Both the position numbers and the translations under genes were made by a program. Below are positions 2,492-54,960 of a stretch of 64,000 nt of DNA, piece by piece; the first letter of the stretch is position 1, and every line of letters starts with the position of its first letter. Origin of the DNA: Tetmemena sp. SeJ-2015 (taxonomy: Eukaryota; Ciliophora; Spirotrichea; Sporadotrichida; Oxytrichidae); NCBI GenBank assembly GCA_027382625.1, contig JAJKFJ010022091.1, positions 62,001-126,000 on the forward strand. The letters run 5' to 3'. A model generated the notes under the pieces. It did not search any database. It saw only the letters and a program-made list of their open reading frames with translations, and had not been told where the DNA came from.

Positions 2492-2588
2492 TCTCAAAAT
2501 ATTTTCACAATTTAATTACCGCCTTCTTTTCAAAATTCAACTCAAAGTCGGCTAATACTTTCAATTAAGTGAAATTATAATCTTAGAA

Positions 2589-3212
2589 ATGAATCAATAA
2601 ATTTAAGTGAGTGAGAACTTTGAGAACATCAAATTTTCCACTAAGAAAAGTGTCGAGCAAGCAGACTACTTCACAAAGGTAAGAATGCTTATCATATTTC
2701 TTCTCTCTCTTATTCTTGAGTATTGAAATCGACATAAATAACTAATTGTTATAGAATCTGTTCTACTTGATGAATGAGATGATCAAAGTCAAATTGGGCT
2801 AAGAGGAAATCAAATCCTAACCTCATAACTAAAACGAGTAAAATTATATAGGGAAAATAATAATTGATGTAGAACAAACGATATGGAAATTATCAAGGAG
2901 AGAGATTTAGAGTAATCATGCCTAAATGCCTTAATGAATTCTTTAGATTGGAGACTCAGATGGGTATTTGCATTCAGACTCTCAAAAAGGAAAAATTTCA
3001 GCTTCTCACAGAATTGGTAAGTTACTTCATATTTTATCTGTGCCTAAATTACTCACTAATTAATGTAGGACTTGCTGAGTGACTAATTAGTCTAAGCAAA
3101 CTACGACAACCCAACCAAATTCAAGGAATATTTCGAGTCCTCAATTCGAGCTGAGGTGGGAGAACAAGATGAGATAACAGAAAGCTTGGGGGAGATTGAC
3201 AACTATCTTTGA
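2589..3212 (+). CDS. Small unrecognised protein with helical/coiled-coil character
   Basis: The frame opens at ATG 2589 (MNQQIQVSENFENIKFSTK) and ends at TGA 3210-3212 after ITESLGEIDNYL. Three introns are supported by GT-AG borders and frame: GTAAGAATGC...TTATAG, a 35-nt GTAAAATTA...GATGTAG, and GTAAGTTACT...AATGTAG. A micro-IES with pointer ATGCCT (2918-2931) is needed to pass from DLEQSCL to NEFFRLETQMG. The middle (LKKEKFQLLTELDLLSDQL) looks like an amphipathic helix. I do not recognise a family. The coherent frame through introns and pointer makes it a real gene. Confidence 0.7.
2918..2931 (+). other. Micro-IES of 2 nt, pointer ATGCCT
   Basis: ATGCCT is at 2918-2923 and again at 2926-2931. 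Deleting 8 nt (one pointer plus AA) restores a single frame through the small gene around it. Confidence 0.75.
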
Positions 3213-3489
3213 ATCAATAATTTAGAACTGCTTTTGATCAAGAATCATTATTCTTTTTTTCTTCACAAAATTGGACTGTTTATCTGCAATTTCGATACGA
3301 GTAGTTGATTAAAATTTGAAATTCAAGTTGTTATTTATTAAATTTAGCATCAATGTCGTTTTTCGATACAAGCCAGAGATTTACCTTTTACTATTTTATT
3401 TTATTAATTTTATTACCTCAGACAAGCAATCCATACAAATTAATGTTTCATCATCATACTTCTAATTGTTTAATTCAATGTGAGCCAAA

Positions 3490-3580
3490 ATGAATACCTT
3501 GTTAACTTTTTTAGTATTAGGGAAGTCCAGCGTCGGCTAGTACAATATCAAAGGTTTCTTCTCTTAAAGAAACCCATCTT
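3490..3580 (+). CDS. Putative first MDS of the Q-rich gene that continues at 5056
   Basis: An open frame begins at ATG 3490 and reads MNTLLTFLVLGKSSVGQYN then IKGFFSQRNPS. It ends in the 16-bp sequence TAAAGAAACCCATCTT (3565-3580), which recurs exactly at 5056-5071. Joining the two copies continues the frame as FFSQRNPSFSQKNQSPNYER. This makes the intervening 1.48 kb, which contains every aquaporin segment, an eliminated segment for this gene. I see no other coding in 3213-3489, which is AT-rich. The assignment rests on the length and exactness of the repeat plus frame continuity. Confidence 0.65.
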
Positions 3581-3766
3581 CAAATATATATTTAGAATAT
3601 ATATTCACGGCTGATACCAAAAATAGAACTGATATGAATTAATGAAGTTATAATATAGGAGGAAAAGGAATCTGTTGCTTTCTTCAATTAAAATTATCTT
3701 CGAAACTACTTCAGATAGAGCGGGAAAATTTAGAATAACAAAATACAAAAAGCAAAAAGTTAGAGG

Positions 3767-4567
3767 TCAGGCTGCGACTTCTCCTGCGGGAGCTGGTGCC
3801 TCCAATTTTTTCAGGGCTCTGTTGTCGAGTTTTATGTGGACTCTGAAAAACAAAGCAGCCAATATTGCACCTATAAGGAATGAGAAGTTCGCATTTGAAA
3901 ACTCATTAGCATATTTAAAGTTTGAAGATGCTCCATTCAAGTCAACTCCATTCAGGAATCCAACTTAGGATTTGAGAAGTCCTGAGCGAGGGCTTATAGA
4001 TGATCAGAAGGTAGGCATAGACCCACACGAATGAGTTTATCATCTCGAGCCAGAGGATCTTAGCGTAGTAGATGTTGCTAAATTGGGAAAAGTAGCGGGT
4101 CGCTCCCACTCCTCCGGCGATTCTCTCACTTGGCCACAGCATGTAACCCTGCACTGGCTCATTGAAAATTAGCAAAATTTAAATGGAAGTGCTTGTATTT
4201 AATTATAAAATTAGATAGGTGTTAAGGATTCCAGCGAAGGCTCCCATCAACTGGAATAGCCAATATAGAAGCAACCTTCCTAGCTGCTTTAGGTACTTGC
4301 CCTCTGAAAGGTAGACTCCTAGGGTGAAGGCTGGGTTGAAATGAGCTCCAGAGACTGTGAAAGCTAGCATCCACATGGTGAAGTAAGCCATCATCCGCAT
4401 CCAGTAGTTGTTGAAACTGAAGTTGAAGGCGTAAACCACTACCCAAGTCCCCAAGAACTCCATAACTAATGCCCTTAATTGATATCTTATTAAATATCAT
4501 TCATTTATCTTTGTTATGCCCTGATTAAATGTAGATATTTGTGATTTTCTGGCACTGAGCTCTCCAT
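3767..4567 (-). CDS. Aquaporin (MIP family), scrambled germline gene, minus-strand MDSs
   Basis: Membrane channel for water or small solutes. On the minus strand the gene starts at ATG 4567 (MESSVPENHKYLHLI). It crosses an IES with pointer AGGGCAT into RALVMEFLGTWVVVYAFNF, the usual MIP first-helix pattern, then carries the first NPA box in SGAHFNPAFTLGVYL. A second IES (pointer CTAATTTT) is followed by NEPVQGYMLWPSERI and continues to YKPSLRT. There the frame must leave to the inverted plus-strand segment at 4740 for the second NPA box. It then returns to minus-strand 3966-3767 for the last helix (FLIGAILAALFFRVHIKLD) and TGA at 3767-3769. About 265 residues are predicted after unscrambling, normal for aquaporins. 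Physical order on the plus strand is last part, first part, middle part (inverted). Confidence 0.9.
4165..4214 (-). other. IES, pointer CTAATTTT, in aquaporin gene
   Basis: The 8-bp repeat is at 4165-4172 and 4207-4214 (as AAAATTAG on the plus strand). Removing 42 nt leaves frame unchanged and joins AGILNTYLI to FNEPVQGYM, deleting a very AT-rich stretch. Confidence 0.85.
4469..4522 (-). other. IES, pointer AGGGCAT, in aquaporin gene
   Basis: AGGGCAT (ATGCCCT on the plus strand) lies at 4469-4475 and 4516-4522. Excision joins MESSVPENHKYLHLIRA to LVMEFLGTW and supplies a proper start codon for the aquaporin. Confidence 0.88.
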
Positions 4568-4739
4568 CGAGCAAGCAATCTTTCGATGAGGAAACAAGAA
4601 ACTTTTATAATTAAAACTAACTTTTTATTCACCTCCTTATATATCGTCCTAATTTGATCAAATCTTCCACCCACTTAGAATAATTATCTTGCTCATGATA
4701 TGATATTTTCATATTTATTGTATCCGCAGGGATGAGGTG

Positions 4740-4931
4740 CTCGCTCAGGACGGTGGATGAGATAATTAAAGGACTAGGAGTAGCTTTGATAGGATATGCA
4801 GTGTTGAGCACCACAGCAGAATCTGGTGGCTGTTTGAATCCTGCTTTAGCTATTTCCCAAGTTAGTTAAACCAGGCTTGTAATAGATCATGAACAATAAT
4901 AATTTAAGAAATCAATTTACCAAGTTGGATT
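4740..4931 (+). CDS. Inverted MDS of the aquaporin gene with the second NPA box
   Basis: The plus strand reads VDEIIKGLGVALIGYAVLS then TTAESGGCLNPALAISQ, a typical loop E / second NPA half. Its left border, CTCGCTCAGGAC at 4740-4751, is identical to the minus-strand end of the first aquaporin block (reverse complement at 3979-3990). Joining there reads KPSLRT-VDEIIK in one frame. Its right side ends at AAGTT (4859-4863), shared with minus-strand 3962-3966. Alternatively a 63-nt IES (pointer CCAAGTT, 4857-4926) is removed first and the junction uses AAGTTGGATT (4922-4931 and 3957-3966). Both give the same joined frame, AISQVG-FLNGVDLNG. Confidence 0.88.
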
Positions 4932-5055
4932 GATATTATGATGGTATTGATGGAGCAAGATACGCAAGCACTATCTGGTGTTACATTATCTTCCCTCTTA
5001 TAGGTGCAATACTATTTTCTATTCAAATTATTTCTTTCTAAGATTAAAAATTTTA
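4932..5055 (+). other. Diverged second copy of an aquaporin C-terminal segment
   Basis: Directly to the right of the inverted NPA segment the plus strand reads DGIDGARYASTIWCYIIFP then LIGAILFSIQ in another frame. This resembles the true last segment on the minus strand (NGVDLNGASSNFKYANEF and FLIGAILAALFF) in sequence and order. It may be a paralogous MDS of a second aquaporin gene, or a decayed duplicate left in eliminated DNA. A TGA just upstream breaks its frame. Confidence 0.5.
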
Positions 5056-8000
5056 TAAAGAAACCCATCTTTTTCCTAAAAGAACTAATCTCCAAACTAC
5101 GAGCGCAATTACGGCTCAATGGTTTAGAACTCAGAAGGTAATCGCAAAAGGTTGCAACACAATTCTTCTGAGGGCTAGCTGCTTTCTAATATGCACTTCA
5201 ACAGCACAATCAGATTCCAAGGGTAACTTAGTAATTCAGCCTCTGCGAGTAGACGCTAAAGCTCAAAGCCATTAAATCGGCATATTTAAAACTATTTAAG
5301 CCAGTTGATGGGTACCATGATAAGATAACTCTCCGAAGACTATCGTAGTAGCCTATTACAATTTAAGAGTTGCAGAAAAGGATGAACTTTAAGAACCAAC
5401 TTAAGAAGAGCTCGTTCAAGGCCTTGAACCAAATTAACTAAAACTTACAAACCAAATCATAATAATAGTAGAGGAGAATTTAAGAAGATTAAAAATAAGA
5501 GAAGTCATAAGATGCTTTAAGGTTACAAGAGAGCTCAAGGATATTAGCATAAATAGTTCATTTGGTTTAATAAATTAGGGATATGGAATAAAAAAGGCAA
5601 TTCTCCTCCTAATAAGCAAAGGTTGCGGGCTCAGCAATTAGTTTAGAGCAAAGTAATTATAATCAAAATTAAATGTTATATTTGAGCAAAAGCTGTGAAA
5701 GACAGAGAAAGAATGAACAGGGAGACGATAGTTGCAGTTTTCTCTAACTGAATCAAGATTTGCTAAAGCAATTTCTTCTTACATTTTATTGCTAGATCTT
5801 AAGTGTTTCTCCTAGGATGACCCTTCTCCGTTAGATGAACAAGAAGAATTCTCCAAACTTGAGGAAAGCTTCAAATTTTATAAGTAAAGGCTTTACTTAT
5901 AATGTAAATTGTTTTTTATTAAAATAAAAAAACTTAAGCAAATAAAAAGTTATATTCTCTAAATCTTGGTAATTCTATTTTAAGAAAGAAATAAACGTAT
6001 TTCTAAAGTTTAAAATATAATCCGTATGTATAAAACCATTATATCTTTTGTTTTAAGCTTGAAAATCAGAGACCTTTAGCTAAACGACACTTAAAATATC
6101 ACAAATAACCTTGATAAAAACAAAAGTAGGCAAAATTACTCTACAAGTATTTATTTTAAAATGCTGAGCAGTTTCCAAGAGACAGTTTGGAATATCAAGA
6201 ACCATAGATTATCCAGGAGGATATAAGTCAAGAACCGAATGAAAAAAGTGGTTATACTTAGAATATATCACAAGATATTTCACACGAAGCAGAAGGTGAA
6301 GTAAACAACTTAGGTGGGTGCTAGGAATGCTTTAAAGAAACTCTTTCGCGCATTTAAACAGAGAGACAAGTAATAACTAGAGCCATCCATCTCAACATCA
6401 AAAAGCTTCATGAAAAGCAGGAATACAACTTTTATATTGTCTCTTTAATGGAAGAGAAGAAGTCTTTGGTCAGTTAAAGTGAGAAGCGACTGCTTATGAG
6501 GAGAAACAGCTAAGGTCAGTTGCATTCATCAGAGTCTCTGACTCGTTCATTTAATAGCAATAAGAGTCACAACATTATGGACAATACATACTTCAATTTT
6601 AAGATTATTTCCTTCTTTTTACTTTAAGAAGATTTTAAAACCACAAAATCCAAGTTATAAACTCCCAGACCCAATCAAGGTTTTGAAATCTTCCAGCTCG
6701 GTTGCCTCACTGAATGTGTCTCACAGGAGAAACTCAACCAACTATTTCTCTCAGACTTCCTCCTCTCATTAAAACTCCTTGTATCCCCATCATGTGGCCC
6801 CTGTTGCTCAAATAAATATCAAGCCTAAGAGAAAATAAGTTACCACCAAAAATTAATTAGCAAGTCCTAAAACTTAAACACTAGGTAAACAAGTGGCGCA
6901 AAAATAAGGGGAGAGTCAGGTTGTTATGAAGACCTTTGGGGAGACGCAGTGCACGACTGGATACTCTGAGGCAAACAACTCTAACCATTCATTGCTCATT
7001 CTTAATAGAATAAACTCAGGAGTGCTCAAACCTTAAGACGTCAACTGCCTTCAAGATAAGCAGGGTGAGTCTAATTTTAACCAGAAAATTGTGCAGAGTC
7101 AATTAAGAAGAAGCTCCCCAAGAATTGTTGGAGTTTATAGTCTGCATACTGCTAAGAACTCCCCTTATAAGAAATCGAAGAACTAGACTCTCAAATTGAG
7201 CTTGAAAAGAAACTCTCGTAAAAACTCAAATACAAATTTTGATGATCCAATTGAAGGTGTCAACCACGATATGGGTTAGAAAATTTAAGGATGTATTTTA
7301 TGCTATCTTTAATCTTTTGATTAAAATAAAAGATACCCCTTGATAAGAAATAAATAGTGGATAAGAAAATAAACAACTACATTTTGACTAAGTACGAGAG
7401 TCAAAGCAAGCAAAGCAGCACAGAGAAATTTAAAAAGCAGTAGATGCAAAACTAGGACCTTTAACCGTAGGCTTTAAACCATATTTAGTTGAGATCTGTG
7501 CAGGAGGAGGATCTTGACAAAGATTATGGAAATAATTAGGAATACAGTTCAAGTCAATAGAAAGTAGTTCATAAGTTCAATGTGAATTAGAGCGATTAGA
7601 GCTCAAGTATAACACTTTTCGAGGACTCCAGAATTAAGAAGGAGAAGTTTAATTATACAATTAAATAAATTTAAGCAGAACCAAAAGTATTGCTAATTTA
7701 ATCAAAATATTTATTATGTTCTAAATCATTAAATATGCTCTACTATAAAGCGCAATTTAATTTTTTTGTTTTTTTATGTCTATAATAATCGAGCAAGGCT
7801 AACTTATTTGGAAAAAGACAAAGTCAAGCTAGTTTGGTTGGTTACTCTGGAGCCACAACAACTAGAGTGATAGACATTAAGAAGATTTAAAGCAATATCT
7901 CTACTTCTTAAAAGACTCTTTATAGCTCTCAGAGATTAAATCATAAGTAGCCTTAGTACTACTACTAAGATAAGAGCAAGAAAACTAAGAAGGAGAATTT

Positions 8001-10816: not shown

Positions 10817-12008
10817 ATGTTGGTCCCTAAGAATCTTATTTTCAGCTCCCTCAAGAACAAGGCCTCCAGACAGGCTGCCGCCTTCACCAGTACCATTCTT
10901 TGCATTGTTGTAAAAGTTATTGCTAGGCCAACAGGTGAGACCTTTCGGTATAGTGCAGGAGTACAACGAGAGAAAGAATAAGAAACTGATTAACAACGTG
11001 CTCTGCACTGAAGAGCCTAAGTTCTGGGTCACCTCCTCCAGACCATCCAACTTCGGAGATCCTCTCGACACCAAGACCAAGGTCGACAACTGGTTCGATG
11101 AGAACAGGTAAACCTCAAACAATGCGCACAACACACTCATAGAATATTAATATTGGCTAAGATTGGTTTAGGTAGATCCACTCTTTGTTAGAAATATCGG
11201 AGGTCAAATAAGCTTCCTAGAGATTCCAAGGAAGGAAATGCGGTCGTTTTAATGATGGAGGGCCCATCTTCCTCCCTGGAATAATCTATAATATTATATT
11301 AAACCCTCACTTACATTTGTAAGTTATCTAAAGTTGCAGTTTTTAGATATCAACTCTCTATTCGAGTTAACGATTTTATTATAAAATGATGGCGCTATTG
11401 GGGTTTAAGTGTGATAATAAATCGTAAATAGACTGTGGAACGAGGAGAACAAGGACTACGAAATCAAGAGAGCCCAGATCTACATGCTCCAAGGATTCGT
11501 GCTCAGCTCTTACGTACTCGGTATCAAAACCGTCATCACCTGCCTCTATCAGCAGATGAACACCCGTACTCGTTACATCAGAGACTCCTACAAGGAACTC
11601 GAAATCTCTGAGCTCCCACCTGGTGAGGTCCTCCAAACCTCTTGGAACGGAGAACTCATCTTCGTGAGAAGACTTACCCTCACTGAAGTCAAGGACACTG
11701 GCTCTCTCCCCGACTCCACCCTCCTCGATAAAACTTCAGTTACCTCTCTTTCCGACGCAGGAAACTCTCAAATCTTGGTGTGCTCAGCTATTTGCACTCA
11801 CTTGGGTTGCATCCCCGTGCCCTACTTGGGAGCCTACAAGGGATGGGTTTGCTTGTGCCACGGTTCAGTGTACGACAAGTTCGGAAGAGTGAGACAGGGA
11901 CCCGCCCAGAACAATCTCCCCTACATTAACAACTCAGTGTACGGACCCGTTGTGTGCATTGAAGAGCAAATCTTCCCCAACGAGCCCTCCATCTTCCTCT
12001 ACGTCTGA
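10817..12008 (+). CDS. Mitochondrial Rieske iron-sulfur protein (cytochrome bc1 complex)
   Basis: The Rieske subunit of respiratory complex III transfers electrons from ubiquinol to cytochrome c1 through a 2Fe-2S cluster in the inner mitochondrial membrane. The frame starts at ATG 10817 (MLVPKNLIFSSLKNKASRQA), a basic mitochondrial-targeting-like N-terminus. A 37-nt intron (10890-10926) and a 324-nt intron (11108-11431) are phase-correct GT-AG. Exon 3 carries both cluster boxes, CTHLGC and CLCHGS, with the usual spacing, followed by GPAQNNLPY in place of the common GPAPxxLxVP. Stop TGA is at 12006-12008, giving 276 codons, normal for the family. Codons are strikingly GC-ending compared with neighbouring genes, as expected for a highly expressed gene. 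Confidence 0.96.
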
Positions 12009-52470: not shown

Positions 52471-52714
52471 CTATAGTATTTGGTTTGCTTTAAAGTCTAA
52501 GCGATCGGTGCAGAGGATTGCCCATTCAGTAAATTATCGATCAGTGCTATTTTTTATTCTATGACTACTAAATTAGTGATGATGAATGATGAATAATTGA
52601 GCATGTAAAAGAATAATCAAGTTCCAATCTAGAGATCAGACTTAATTAAACAACTCAAGCATTATTAAATAGGACTTCCAGAGGAAGATTAGAGATTAGG
52701 AATTAGAGTGATTT

Positions 52715-53215
52715 AAATATTGCCCCATGGGGTGGGTTTGACTATTTAATACCCCCACCTGTCCCCCTCATAAATATGGGGGCTCATACGGTCTCCCTCC
52801 AATGCATCACCGGTACTCTCTAGACGTACTGACCACTGACCAGGGGGCCCACAGCCGATAGCCGCAAGAGGACGCATGCCACTCACTGCACAGGGCAATG
52901 GCCAGGAATCCCTGCCGTTCAAACCCACCCTGACTGAGAGCGTGAGCTGCCGATCACTCGGGGGCCTCGGGCGCCATGCCTGGGGGCTCAGTGGACTGAT
53001 CAAAGAGAGCGTGCACTCTGCCTCCGGTGTCTGATTCAGGGTGCCTCATAGCGGTAGTCATAGGGTGGCCGCTGTCAGTCTCTAGTCATCCTCAACTAGG
53101 TTCGATCTGTCTTGGAATGCTCTAGTAGCACTGTAGTCGCCGTAGTCGGTGCGTCGTTTGCTGCAACCACTCTTACTTTATTTCCCTTTTTTTCCTTTTT
53201 TTTCCCAGTCAGCTC
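52715..53215. repeat. GC-rich island, unlike all flanking DNA
   Basis: About 500 bases are clearly G+C-rich in otherwise AT-rich surroundings. They contain blocks such as CCCCC/GGGGG (CCCCTCATAAATATGGGG can form a hairpin), the repeated GGGGGCTCA at about 52,780 and 52,983, and a B-box-like GGTTCGATCTG near 53,099. It ends in pyrimidine runs. An 85-codon minus frame (52746-53003) exists but contains no recognisable protein. Candidates are a satellite unit, a SINE-like element or foreign DNA. Confidence 0.45.
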
Positions 53216-53219
53216 CATC

Positions 53220-54960
53220 AGCAACTCCATCTTCCTTCGGAAGTCCTATTTAATAATACTACTAAATTAGAGTCATCCTTTTCTTCTCTTAAAAAGAATA
53301 TGAGCGTAAATAATCTTGAAATTCCAGTTAGCAATCTTTAATGTCTGTTGCTGATTCTCCCACTAACAACTCTTGAAGATTTGATGTTGCTTCCTTTACT
53401 AGATGCTGATGAGCTAGGTCGAAAGCCTGCCTTTGGATGCAAGTTTTGAAAAGCAAAAGCATTTCTATTTTGGTAAACTGTTTCAAATTCACCCTTTTAA
53501 TTTTTAACATTAATGCGTTAAATTTTAAACTTACTCTGCTATTTTATTGCTTTGCTAAATAAGTTTAGCAGAGCTGTTTACTATATTGCCATTTATTTTC
53601 ACTATATTCTTTTAAATAAATTGACGAATTTATTTTTTTAAACAATTTTTTACATTTTATTATTTCCAAAATAATCTCTCTGAACTTGAATATTATAATG
53701 TTAATTTCTTTTATTTTAGCAGTTAATTAACCTGAAACAATATTAAGGATAAATTTAGTTTTTGAGTTAGGGATTTATAAACTTCTAAGAATAGTCTGTG
53801 ACTTAGTAAATCTAATTGACATCCTACTCATCTTCCTCTCTTCATAATTGTAATTAAATAATCTCTATTAGTTTAGATGAACTGCTCAGTTGTTTAAGAA
53901 ATAGAGAATCCATTATTTTCCTTCCTAACTGGTCTGTTGTTAATGTAGTTGCTTGTGTATTTTACTTAGTTTATGTTTGTGCCGCCCAATTTCTAATTCT
54001 ATCCATGAGCTAAATTTTATAAATACAAAATAGATAATTATTTATTTATTATAATTTAGGTTTGCATCATTATCTGTCACTTAGTAGGAAGTAGCATTTT
54101 AAAATAGTATATTTATGGCTGGTTAGTTTTGACTTAAATCTTGACTCTGGTTGTTTGCATTAAGAGTAGCAAACTAAGAATCTATTGCGAATTCATTCAT
54201 CTTTTCTTGGGAAGTTTAGTCGTCCTCGCCTTTATCAAACATTGGATTCATCTACCTCTAATCAAGAAAATTTCATAAATTATCAATAAAAATATTATTT
54301 AAAAAAAATTATTGCAGCAAAATAAATATAAGAGAGCAAAAAATCTTAGAATAATTGAATTAAATACAATTTTACTTTGAATTGATGTTGTAATTGAATA
54401 AATTTAAGGAATGATTGTTTTGAAATAAATGATTGTAATTTAAAATTCTATCTTAATAAAAGAGACTGCCTAATTGAAAACTCATCATTACTGCTGTTAT
54501 TGACAACTCCTTATCTCTTCTGCATCTTTTATAGTTCTTGACTGTTATCCTAATCTCTTTGTTCTCCTTGCTTTTTGAAATTTTATGACTGAGTTTAAGG
54601 TTTAACATCTTTTTGTATTTCTAATTGCTCCTCTATGTCCGAGTTTAAATTATAAAGAAGAGTTGATATGCTTGGTCATACCACTACTTCTAAGTATTCT
54701 TGAAACCTTCGTAAATTTATCTTAAGAAATTTAATATAAATTTCGTTTTCATATCAACATTAAGCATGAGTCCTTGCTTGCTAGACTTTTTGTTGATAAT
54801 TGGTGATTCTATTTCACTTTGATCTTCTTTGAGATACTTCTTTCTAGGATTAAAATAATTTTGAATTGCCTTGAGAAGTTTGGGCTCGCTGATGGGTTTT
54901 TCAAGTTTCTACAAATTTTGATATGTTCTCCACATTCATTTTGTGCTTAATGGTAGCCAT
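53220..54960 (-). CDS. Q-rich protein, unrecognised
   Basis: ATG 54960 reads MATIKHKMNVENIS. A probable micro-IES (pointer AAA, 10 nt removed) leads to KLEKPISEPKLLKAIQNYFN and PRKKYLKEDQSEIESPIINK. After AT-rich DNA the frame continues SDIEEQLEIQKDVKPQTQSQ and NFKKQGEQRDQDNSQELQK near 54,650-54,450. A further segment near 53,480-53,330 (FKTCIQRQAFDLAHQHLVKE or the overlapping serine-rich frame) may belong. The end is not determined. No family recognised. Confidence 0.45.

Follow-up and report, generated by a model that had tools for sequence, protein, structure and literature searches.

A probable scrambled aquaporin locus with two inverted segments in putative germline DNA of a spirotrich-like ciliate

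How can one aquaporin be encoded when the two halves of its sequence, each with an NPA box, lie on opposite strands? The question is raised by a locus in the window analysed here, a 64,000-nucleotide stretch (C3003:62001-126000) of an assembly of 146 Mb in 5213 contigs, which also holds a Rieske iron-sulphur protein (PF00355, 33.4 bits) at 11415-12005 on the plus strand. The minus strand carries the first NPA box, the plus strand the second. The word CTCGCTCAGGAC occurs exactly at 3979-3990 (minus) and 4740-4751 (plus), as does AAGTTGGATT at 3957-3966 (minus) and 4922-4931 (plus). These features had been recognized in an earlier note, which took them for a scrambled gene with a single inverted segment and a continuous minus-strand tail. 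The locus is very probably germline (micronuclear) DNA of a spirotrich-like ciliate in which one aquaporin is stored as seven scrambled segments (MDSs), or eight if the two halves of MDS4, which an ordinary IES separates, are counted apart. Five segments (1, 2, 3, 5 and 7) are minus-strand and two (4 and 6) plus-strand, giving the plus-strand order 7' 5' 3' 2' 1' 4 6 (prime for inverted). The inverted pieces are separated from the start codon by 172 bp (4568-4739), beyond which they lie, and sit mid-gene in the joined gene only. All joins are predicted; they yield a 268-residue aquaporin. No second, macronuclear copy of the locus was found in the assembly, where its minus and plus stretches match themselves only. 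Translation followed table 6 (TAA and TAG glutamine, TGA stop), chosen because the reading frame of a sister gene contains two TAA and one TAG and ends in TGA, and because neighbouring long frames are rich in TAA and TAG; the aquaporin pieces of the window have neither codon.

Reading frame alone leads to a simpler product. Once two ordinary IESs are taken out, 47 bp with AGGGCAT (4522-4476) and 42 bp with CTAATTTT (4214-4173), the start codon at 4567, both NPA boxes and the stop at 3767-3769 share one frame, as had been claimed. A single inverted segment (4740-4863 or 4740-4931) followed by an unbroken minus tail from 3966 to the stop then gives an in-frame protein of 268 aa through an AAGTT join or 289 aa through the AAGTTGGATT join, with Pfam MIP scores of 50.4 and 50.3 bits, above the cut-off of 25. 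In this product, however, the conserved first half of TM6 is exchanged for a polar stretch. An aquaporin-like start of TM6 (ARYASTIWCYIIFPLIGAI) is present on the plus strand, while the minus strand is polar there. A trial hybrid protein that needed an ad hoc frame change scored 65.7 bits to Pfam MIP, up from 50.4, and an unscrambled relative was therefore sought.

A search of the assembly with a trial hybrid gives 28 matches among the best candidates scored. Six contigs carry at least two aquaporin matches; in five of them all matches are on one strand, and strands are mixed at the window locus only. Two contigs, C4275 and C3515, carry colinear sister copies. Removing IESs of 37 and 31 bp rebuilds their coding sequence, which specifies a protein of 263 residues. 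The two copies differ at 18 of 792 bases with no protein change and probably represent two alleles or a recent duplication. Two other aquaporin-bearing regions came to light. A 5-kb region (G000:C1724:18635-23611; L003, L007, L014, L016, L020, L023) has five matches, all on one strand, and is likely a tandem aquaporin cluster. An aquaporin frame of 250 aa, intact and free of internal stops (L001, G000:C1832:286692-290378), lies on a 318-kb contig of bacterial look, so that a bacterial contig may be present in the assembly.

The sister protein, used alone in tblastn with no join assumed, finds four stretches at the locus: 4475-3978 (minus), 4741-4860 (plus), 4937-5023 (plus) and 4003-3785 (minus). 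TM6 is split between strands: plus 4950-5011 encodes its first half, and the remainder lies on the minus strand, beginning at 3877. Two further inverted matches, of which the earlier note had made no use, lie at the required places: CTTATAGGTGCAATA, a 15-bp word found by repeat search inside TM6 on both strands (4997-5011 and 3877-3863), and ATGGAGCA (4950-4957 and 3936-3929). Judged by the sister, the gene probably has two inverted segments, where one had been proposed, and four scrambled junctions.

Followed in coding order, the gene opens with MDS1 (4523-4567, minus), whose coding part from the start codon at 4567 reads MESSVP, as does the beginning of the sister; its tblastn match, in a search of 3700-5100, is weak (residues 1-17 at 4567-4517, E 0.24). 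Ordinary IES1 (4476-4522, minus; 47 bp including one copy of the pointer AGGGCAT, GC 0.21) precedes MDS2 (4215-4475, minus), which carries the first NPA box and lies in the tblastn match at 4475-3978 (E 2e-68). Ordinary IES2 (4173-4214, minus; 42 bp including one copy of CTAATTTT, GC 0.19) leads to MDS3 (3979-4172, minus), whose 3' end is pointer 3/4, CTCGCTCAGGAC at 3990-3979, an exact word used by the gapless search described below. The predicted path switches here to the plus strand, where the first part of MDS4 (4740-4860) starts with pointer 3/4 and contains the second NPA box (tblastn 4741-4860, E 4e-13). A third ordinary IES, beyond the two that had been counted, interrupts this first plus segment at 4861-4911 (plus; 51 bp, GC 0.25, placed by the gapless search). 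Its 2-bp pointer AA is poor support for it; an alternative pointer CCAAGTT (4857, 4920) would drop SIYQ. Removal of 4861-4911 restores the motif Q-[S/T]-x-Y after the second NPA box, present in seven of the eight paralog sequences listed with this region, a share taken from a list pre-filtered by motif pattern and hence not unbiased, in which the near-identical C4275 and C3515 count as two and L023 lacks the motif. The second part of MDS4 (4912-4931, plus; SIYQVG) ends in pointer 4/5, AAGTTGGATT at 4922-4931.

From there the path returns to the minus strand for MDS5 (3929-3966; VGFLNGVDLNGA), bounded by pointer 4/5 at 3966-3957 and pointer 5/6, ATGGAGCA, at 3936-3929. MDS6 (4950-5011, plus), inverted like MDS4, encodes the first half of TM6 (GARYASTIWCYIIFPLIGAI; tblastn 4937-5023, E 4e-13) between pointer 5/6 at 4950-4957 and pointer 6/7, CTTATAGGTGCAATA, at 4997-5011. 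MDS7 (3767-3877, minus) starts with pointer 6/7 at 3877-3863, supplies the rest of TM6 and ends at the stop codon; the tblastn match 4003-3785 ends inside it, gapped over the IES. Three IESs thus lie at scrambled places: 12 bp between MDS3 and MDS5 (3967-3978, minus, GC 0.33), 18 bp between MDS4 and MDS6 (4932-4949, plus, GC 0.28) and 51 bp between MDS5 and MDS7 (3878-3928, minus, GC 0.29). The last is open in frame and was coding in the uninterrupted minus tail of the earlier note, but with TM6 starting on the plus strand it is best read as an IES. An exact short repeat is present at every junction, of 12, 10, 8 and 15 bp at the scrambled ones and 7, 8 and 2 bp at the ordinary ones. The removed DNA is AT-richer, with GC of 0.19-0.33 in the six IESs and 0.36-0.49 in seven of the eight MDS pieces, although the ranges overlap (0.30 in the 20-bp second part of MDS4 against 0.33 in the 12-bp IES).

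The protein stitched with switches at the 12-, 10-, 8- and 15-bp words and removal of the three ordinary IESs aligns without a gap across the 263 residues of the sister, 163 of them identical, whereas the two joins that keep the minus tail reach 145 and 128 ungapped identities. Its global alignment score to the sister is 893.5 versus 792.5 and 791.5, and its match to Pfam MIP (PF00230) 66.6 bits, against the 69.6 bits of the sister, and 16 bits above the one-inversion products (50.4 and 50.3; cut-off 25). The AAGTT join gives a protein of equal total length and was open to a gapless search with words of 5 bp, yet it was not picked; ungapped it scores 421 against 566. Both the AAGTT and the AAGTTGGATT joins into an unbroken tail were set aside as in frame yet poorer by Pfam and alignment scores. 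They also leave unexplained the plus-strand TM6 match (4937-5023, E 4e-13) and the 15-bp word. We therefore consider one inverted segment with a continuous tail a very unlikely description of this gene. What stands of it is the scrambling of one aquaporin with inversion and its first pointer, CTCGCTCAGGAC; for the second pointer, AAGTTGGATT, offered as an alternative to AAGTT, is judged the likelier of the two. Another candidate, a plus segment 4740-5011 with one ordinary IES, offers 31 possible pointer pairs of 3-4 bp, none convincing, and the switch through MDS5 was preferred.

The gapless search compared residues 103-263 of the sister with minus 4172-3767 and plus 4730-5075, allowing strand switches at shared words of at least 5 or at least 8 bp and skips between 2-bp repeats. 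It returned exactly the four-switch path with either minimum word, with a score of 520. When the plus stretch was recoded synonymously, 45 of 60 runs found no full-length path and the best score was 450; other pieces of the window gave 19 of 60 without a path and a best of 314; randomising the four plus-strand pointers, which changes the encoded residues too, gave 55 of 60 and 341. No control run, of 60 for each type and 180 in all, attained 520. The template here, as in every decisive test, was the sister protein encoded in this genome, and the search stretches and starting frame were chosen by us.

The shared words carry unequal weight singly and together. Inverted repeats of at least 12 bp within 1.6 kb number 17 in the window against 4, 12, 6, 14 and 10 in five Markov shuffles, counted after filtering for AT content and complexity, and the 12-mer CTCGCTCAGGAC by itself is not clearly beyond chance. 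Exact runs in a fixed 60-nt register, in 200,000 random pairs drawn from 2500-6500 (a range that can include the true pointers), reached at least 8 bp in 293 cases, at least 10 in 40, at least 12 in six and at least 15 in one. Above chance is the presence of four shared words exactly where the gapless protein requires them. Their order is mirrored, 4740, 4922, 4950 and 4997 on the plus strand facing 3990, 3966, 3936 and 3877 on the minus strand.

Near-chance frequency of lone 12-bp inverted repeats, together with TM6-like sequence on both strands, would also suit an inverted partial duplication with decay, in which a broken minus-strand gene lies beside leftovers of a second aquaporin and nothing is joined. 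The pieces of the two strands are nevertheless complementary, and the stitched product is free of gaps and frameshifts. Moreover, placing the same number of substitutions at random never matched the identity to the sister of MDS2, 3, 4, 6 or 7 (0/5000 each), so pieces of both strands are constrained; pooled plus pieces and pooled minus pieces each show excess amino-acid identity as well (0/5000). MDS1 (106/5000) and MDS5 (467/5000, nine codons) give weak results singly and are too short or divergent for a verdict on selection. Saturation at synonymous sites in five of the seven segments precludes a dN/dS ratio. Outside the pointers the exchanged stretches are no more alike than shuffles, so no decayed second copy is visible, and we regard leftovers of a decayed duplicate as a most improbable source of the plus-strand pieces.

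The germline order changes strand once only, between 4567 and 4740, as a misassembly that created the inversion would produce. Flipping 4740-5011 back still does not give a colinear gene: segments 4 and 6 must interleave with 3, 5 and 7, so one wrong inversion would not explain the layout, and an assembly artefact appears extremely remote.

We infer from the sequence that the cell makes the predicted joins of the seven-segment gene. As the somatic nucleus develops, the cell would excise the three ordinary IESs, flip segments 4 and 6 and join them in alternation with 3, 5 and 7 at the four exact words, retaining one copy of each word. Since the four pointers stand in mirror order, a hairpin of the locus could pair them all, alternate stretches being kept or discarded. 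By analogy with work on Oxytricha, joining may be template-guided, presumably by RNA. The layout would have derived from a colinear ancestor. Three MDS/IES pairs share both flanking pointers, with lengths of 119/12 (the IES in MDS4 left out), 20/18 and 39/51 nt, and their similarity is that of shuffled sequence, 2554, 4566 and 3901 of 5000 shuffles reaching the observed score; so do 896 of 2000 for similarity after 5011. A candidate relic of an inverted duplication before 4740 beat shuffles (2/2000) but ranked 422 among 844 window chunks, which is background, and was discarded. A duplication-and-decay origin is unsupported here; an old event of that kind, or another origin, may account for the locus.

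The locus may itself be part of a larger arrangement. A 16-bp exact direct repeat, TAAAGAAACCCATCTT (3565-3580 and 5056-5071), flanks the whole aquaporin locus and has no further match in the window at up to two mismatches; direct repeats of at least 15 bp number two in the window versus 0, 1, 3, 0 and 0 in five shuffles. Joined across TAAAGAAACCCATCTT, an open frame from ATG 3490, starting MNTLLTFLVLGKSSVGQYN, enters plus-strand sequence with long frames rich in TAA and TAG. No paralog of the joined flanking peptide was found in the assembly with another open frame of the same join as query. These observations only suggest that a plus-strand gene encloses the aquaporin locus within its first IES. 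As minus 3928-3878 is 51 nt in frame without a stop, one can also picture two somatic aquaporins, the four-switch product and another that skips MDS6 and keeps 3928-3878, in a locus so nested; this combination seems to us improbable, and in it the MDS6-skipping version would have an altered first half of TM6. Elsewhere in the window a 19-bp inverted repeat (ATTATTAAATAGGACTTCC) bounds about 600 bp of GC-richer sequence (52661-53257), which resembles either a second scrambled locus or a short transposon flanked by terminal repeats.

The protein predicted from the four-switch joins has the NPA boxes FNPAF and LNPAL. In classical water-selective aquaporins the Arg after the second NPA box is a selectivity filter, and Aquaporin-10 has NPAR; the stitched protein has Leu there instead, as does the sister (NPAL). 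After the second NPA box, Leu or Phe replaces the usual Arg here (box at 4837-4848, plus) and in the ciliate aquaporins L006, L008, L012, L024 and L027, a replacement that may alter selectivity.

DNA polymerase alpha of hypotrichs is also scrambled into odd and even segments with an inversion, and a hairpin pairs its pointers; the polymerase gene has far more segments than the present locus and is unrelated to it. Written a b c d d c b a, the pointer order of the present locus forms a return word. Braun et al. (2018, PMC5940158) describe odd-even loci and "repeat and return words" from Oxytricha trifallax, with odd and even segments on separate stretches and pointers of 2-20 bp, as here, the present case being an aquaporin with only four scrambled pointers. 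The scrambled actin I gene known from Stylonychia lemnae and O. trifallax (PMC2394655) likewise has inverted MDSs, pointers of 3-19 bp and ordinary IESs of tens of bp; in S. lemnae segments 1 and 2 are inverted and 9 is moved, a layout unlike the alternation of inverted segments 4 and 6 with segments 3, 5 and 7 in the aquaporin. Loci used to test duplication and decay (Gao et al. 2015, as cited in Feng et al. 2022, PMC9797194) resemble ours in having pairs with the same pointers on both sides and differ in that our pairs show no similarity above shuffles. Scrambling of the inverted and odd-even kinds is a common finding: one study of O. trifallax classed 29.2% of 18,111 chromosomes as scrambled, 21.4% of the scrambled ones by inversion and 14.7% by inversion plus insertion (PMC10901763). 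A scrambled aquaporin was not found in the literature searched, a negative of little weight because the search took in few subscription journals; the one paper that names both aquaporin and Oxytricha deals with Paramecium calkinsi.

The case carries a caution and a remedy for the reading of such loci. Frame alone can yield a plausible but probably wrong product from a scrambled locus, and a sister protein used as gapless template can decide between joins. With the sister in the same genome, close prediction of the joins does not require macronuclear data. The locus is a clear further example of the well-known inverted odd-even scrambling, adding one to the thousands of scrambled loci that others have described, and a compact one that stands beside an unscrambled sister in the same genome.
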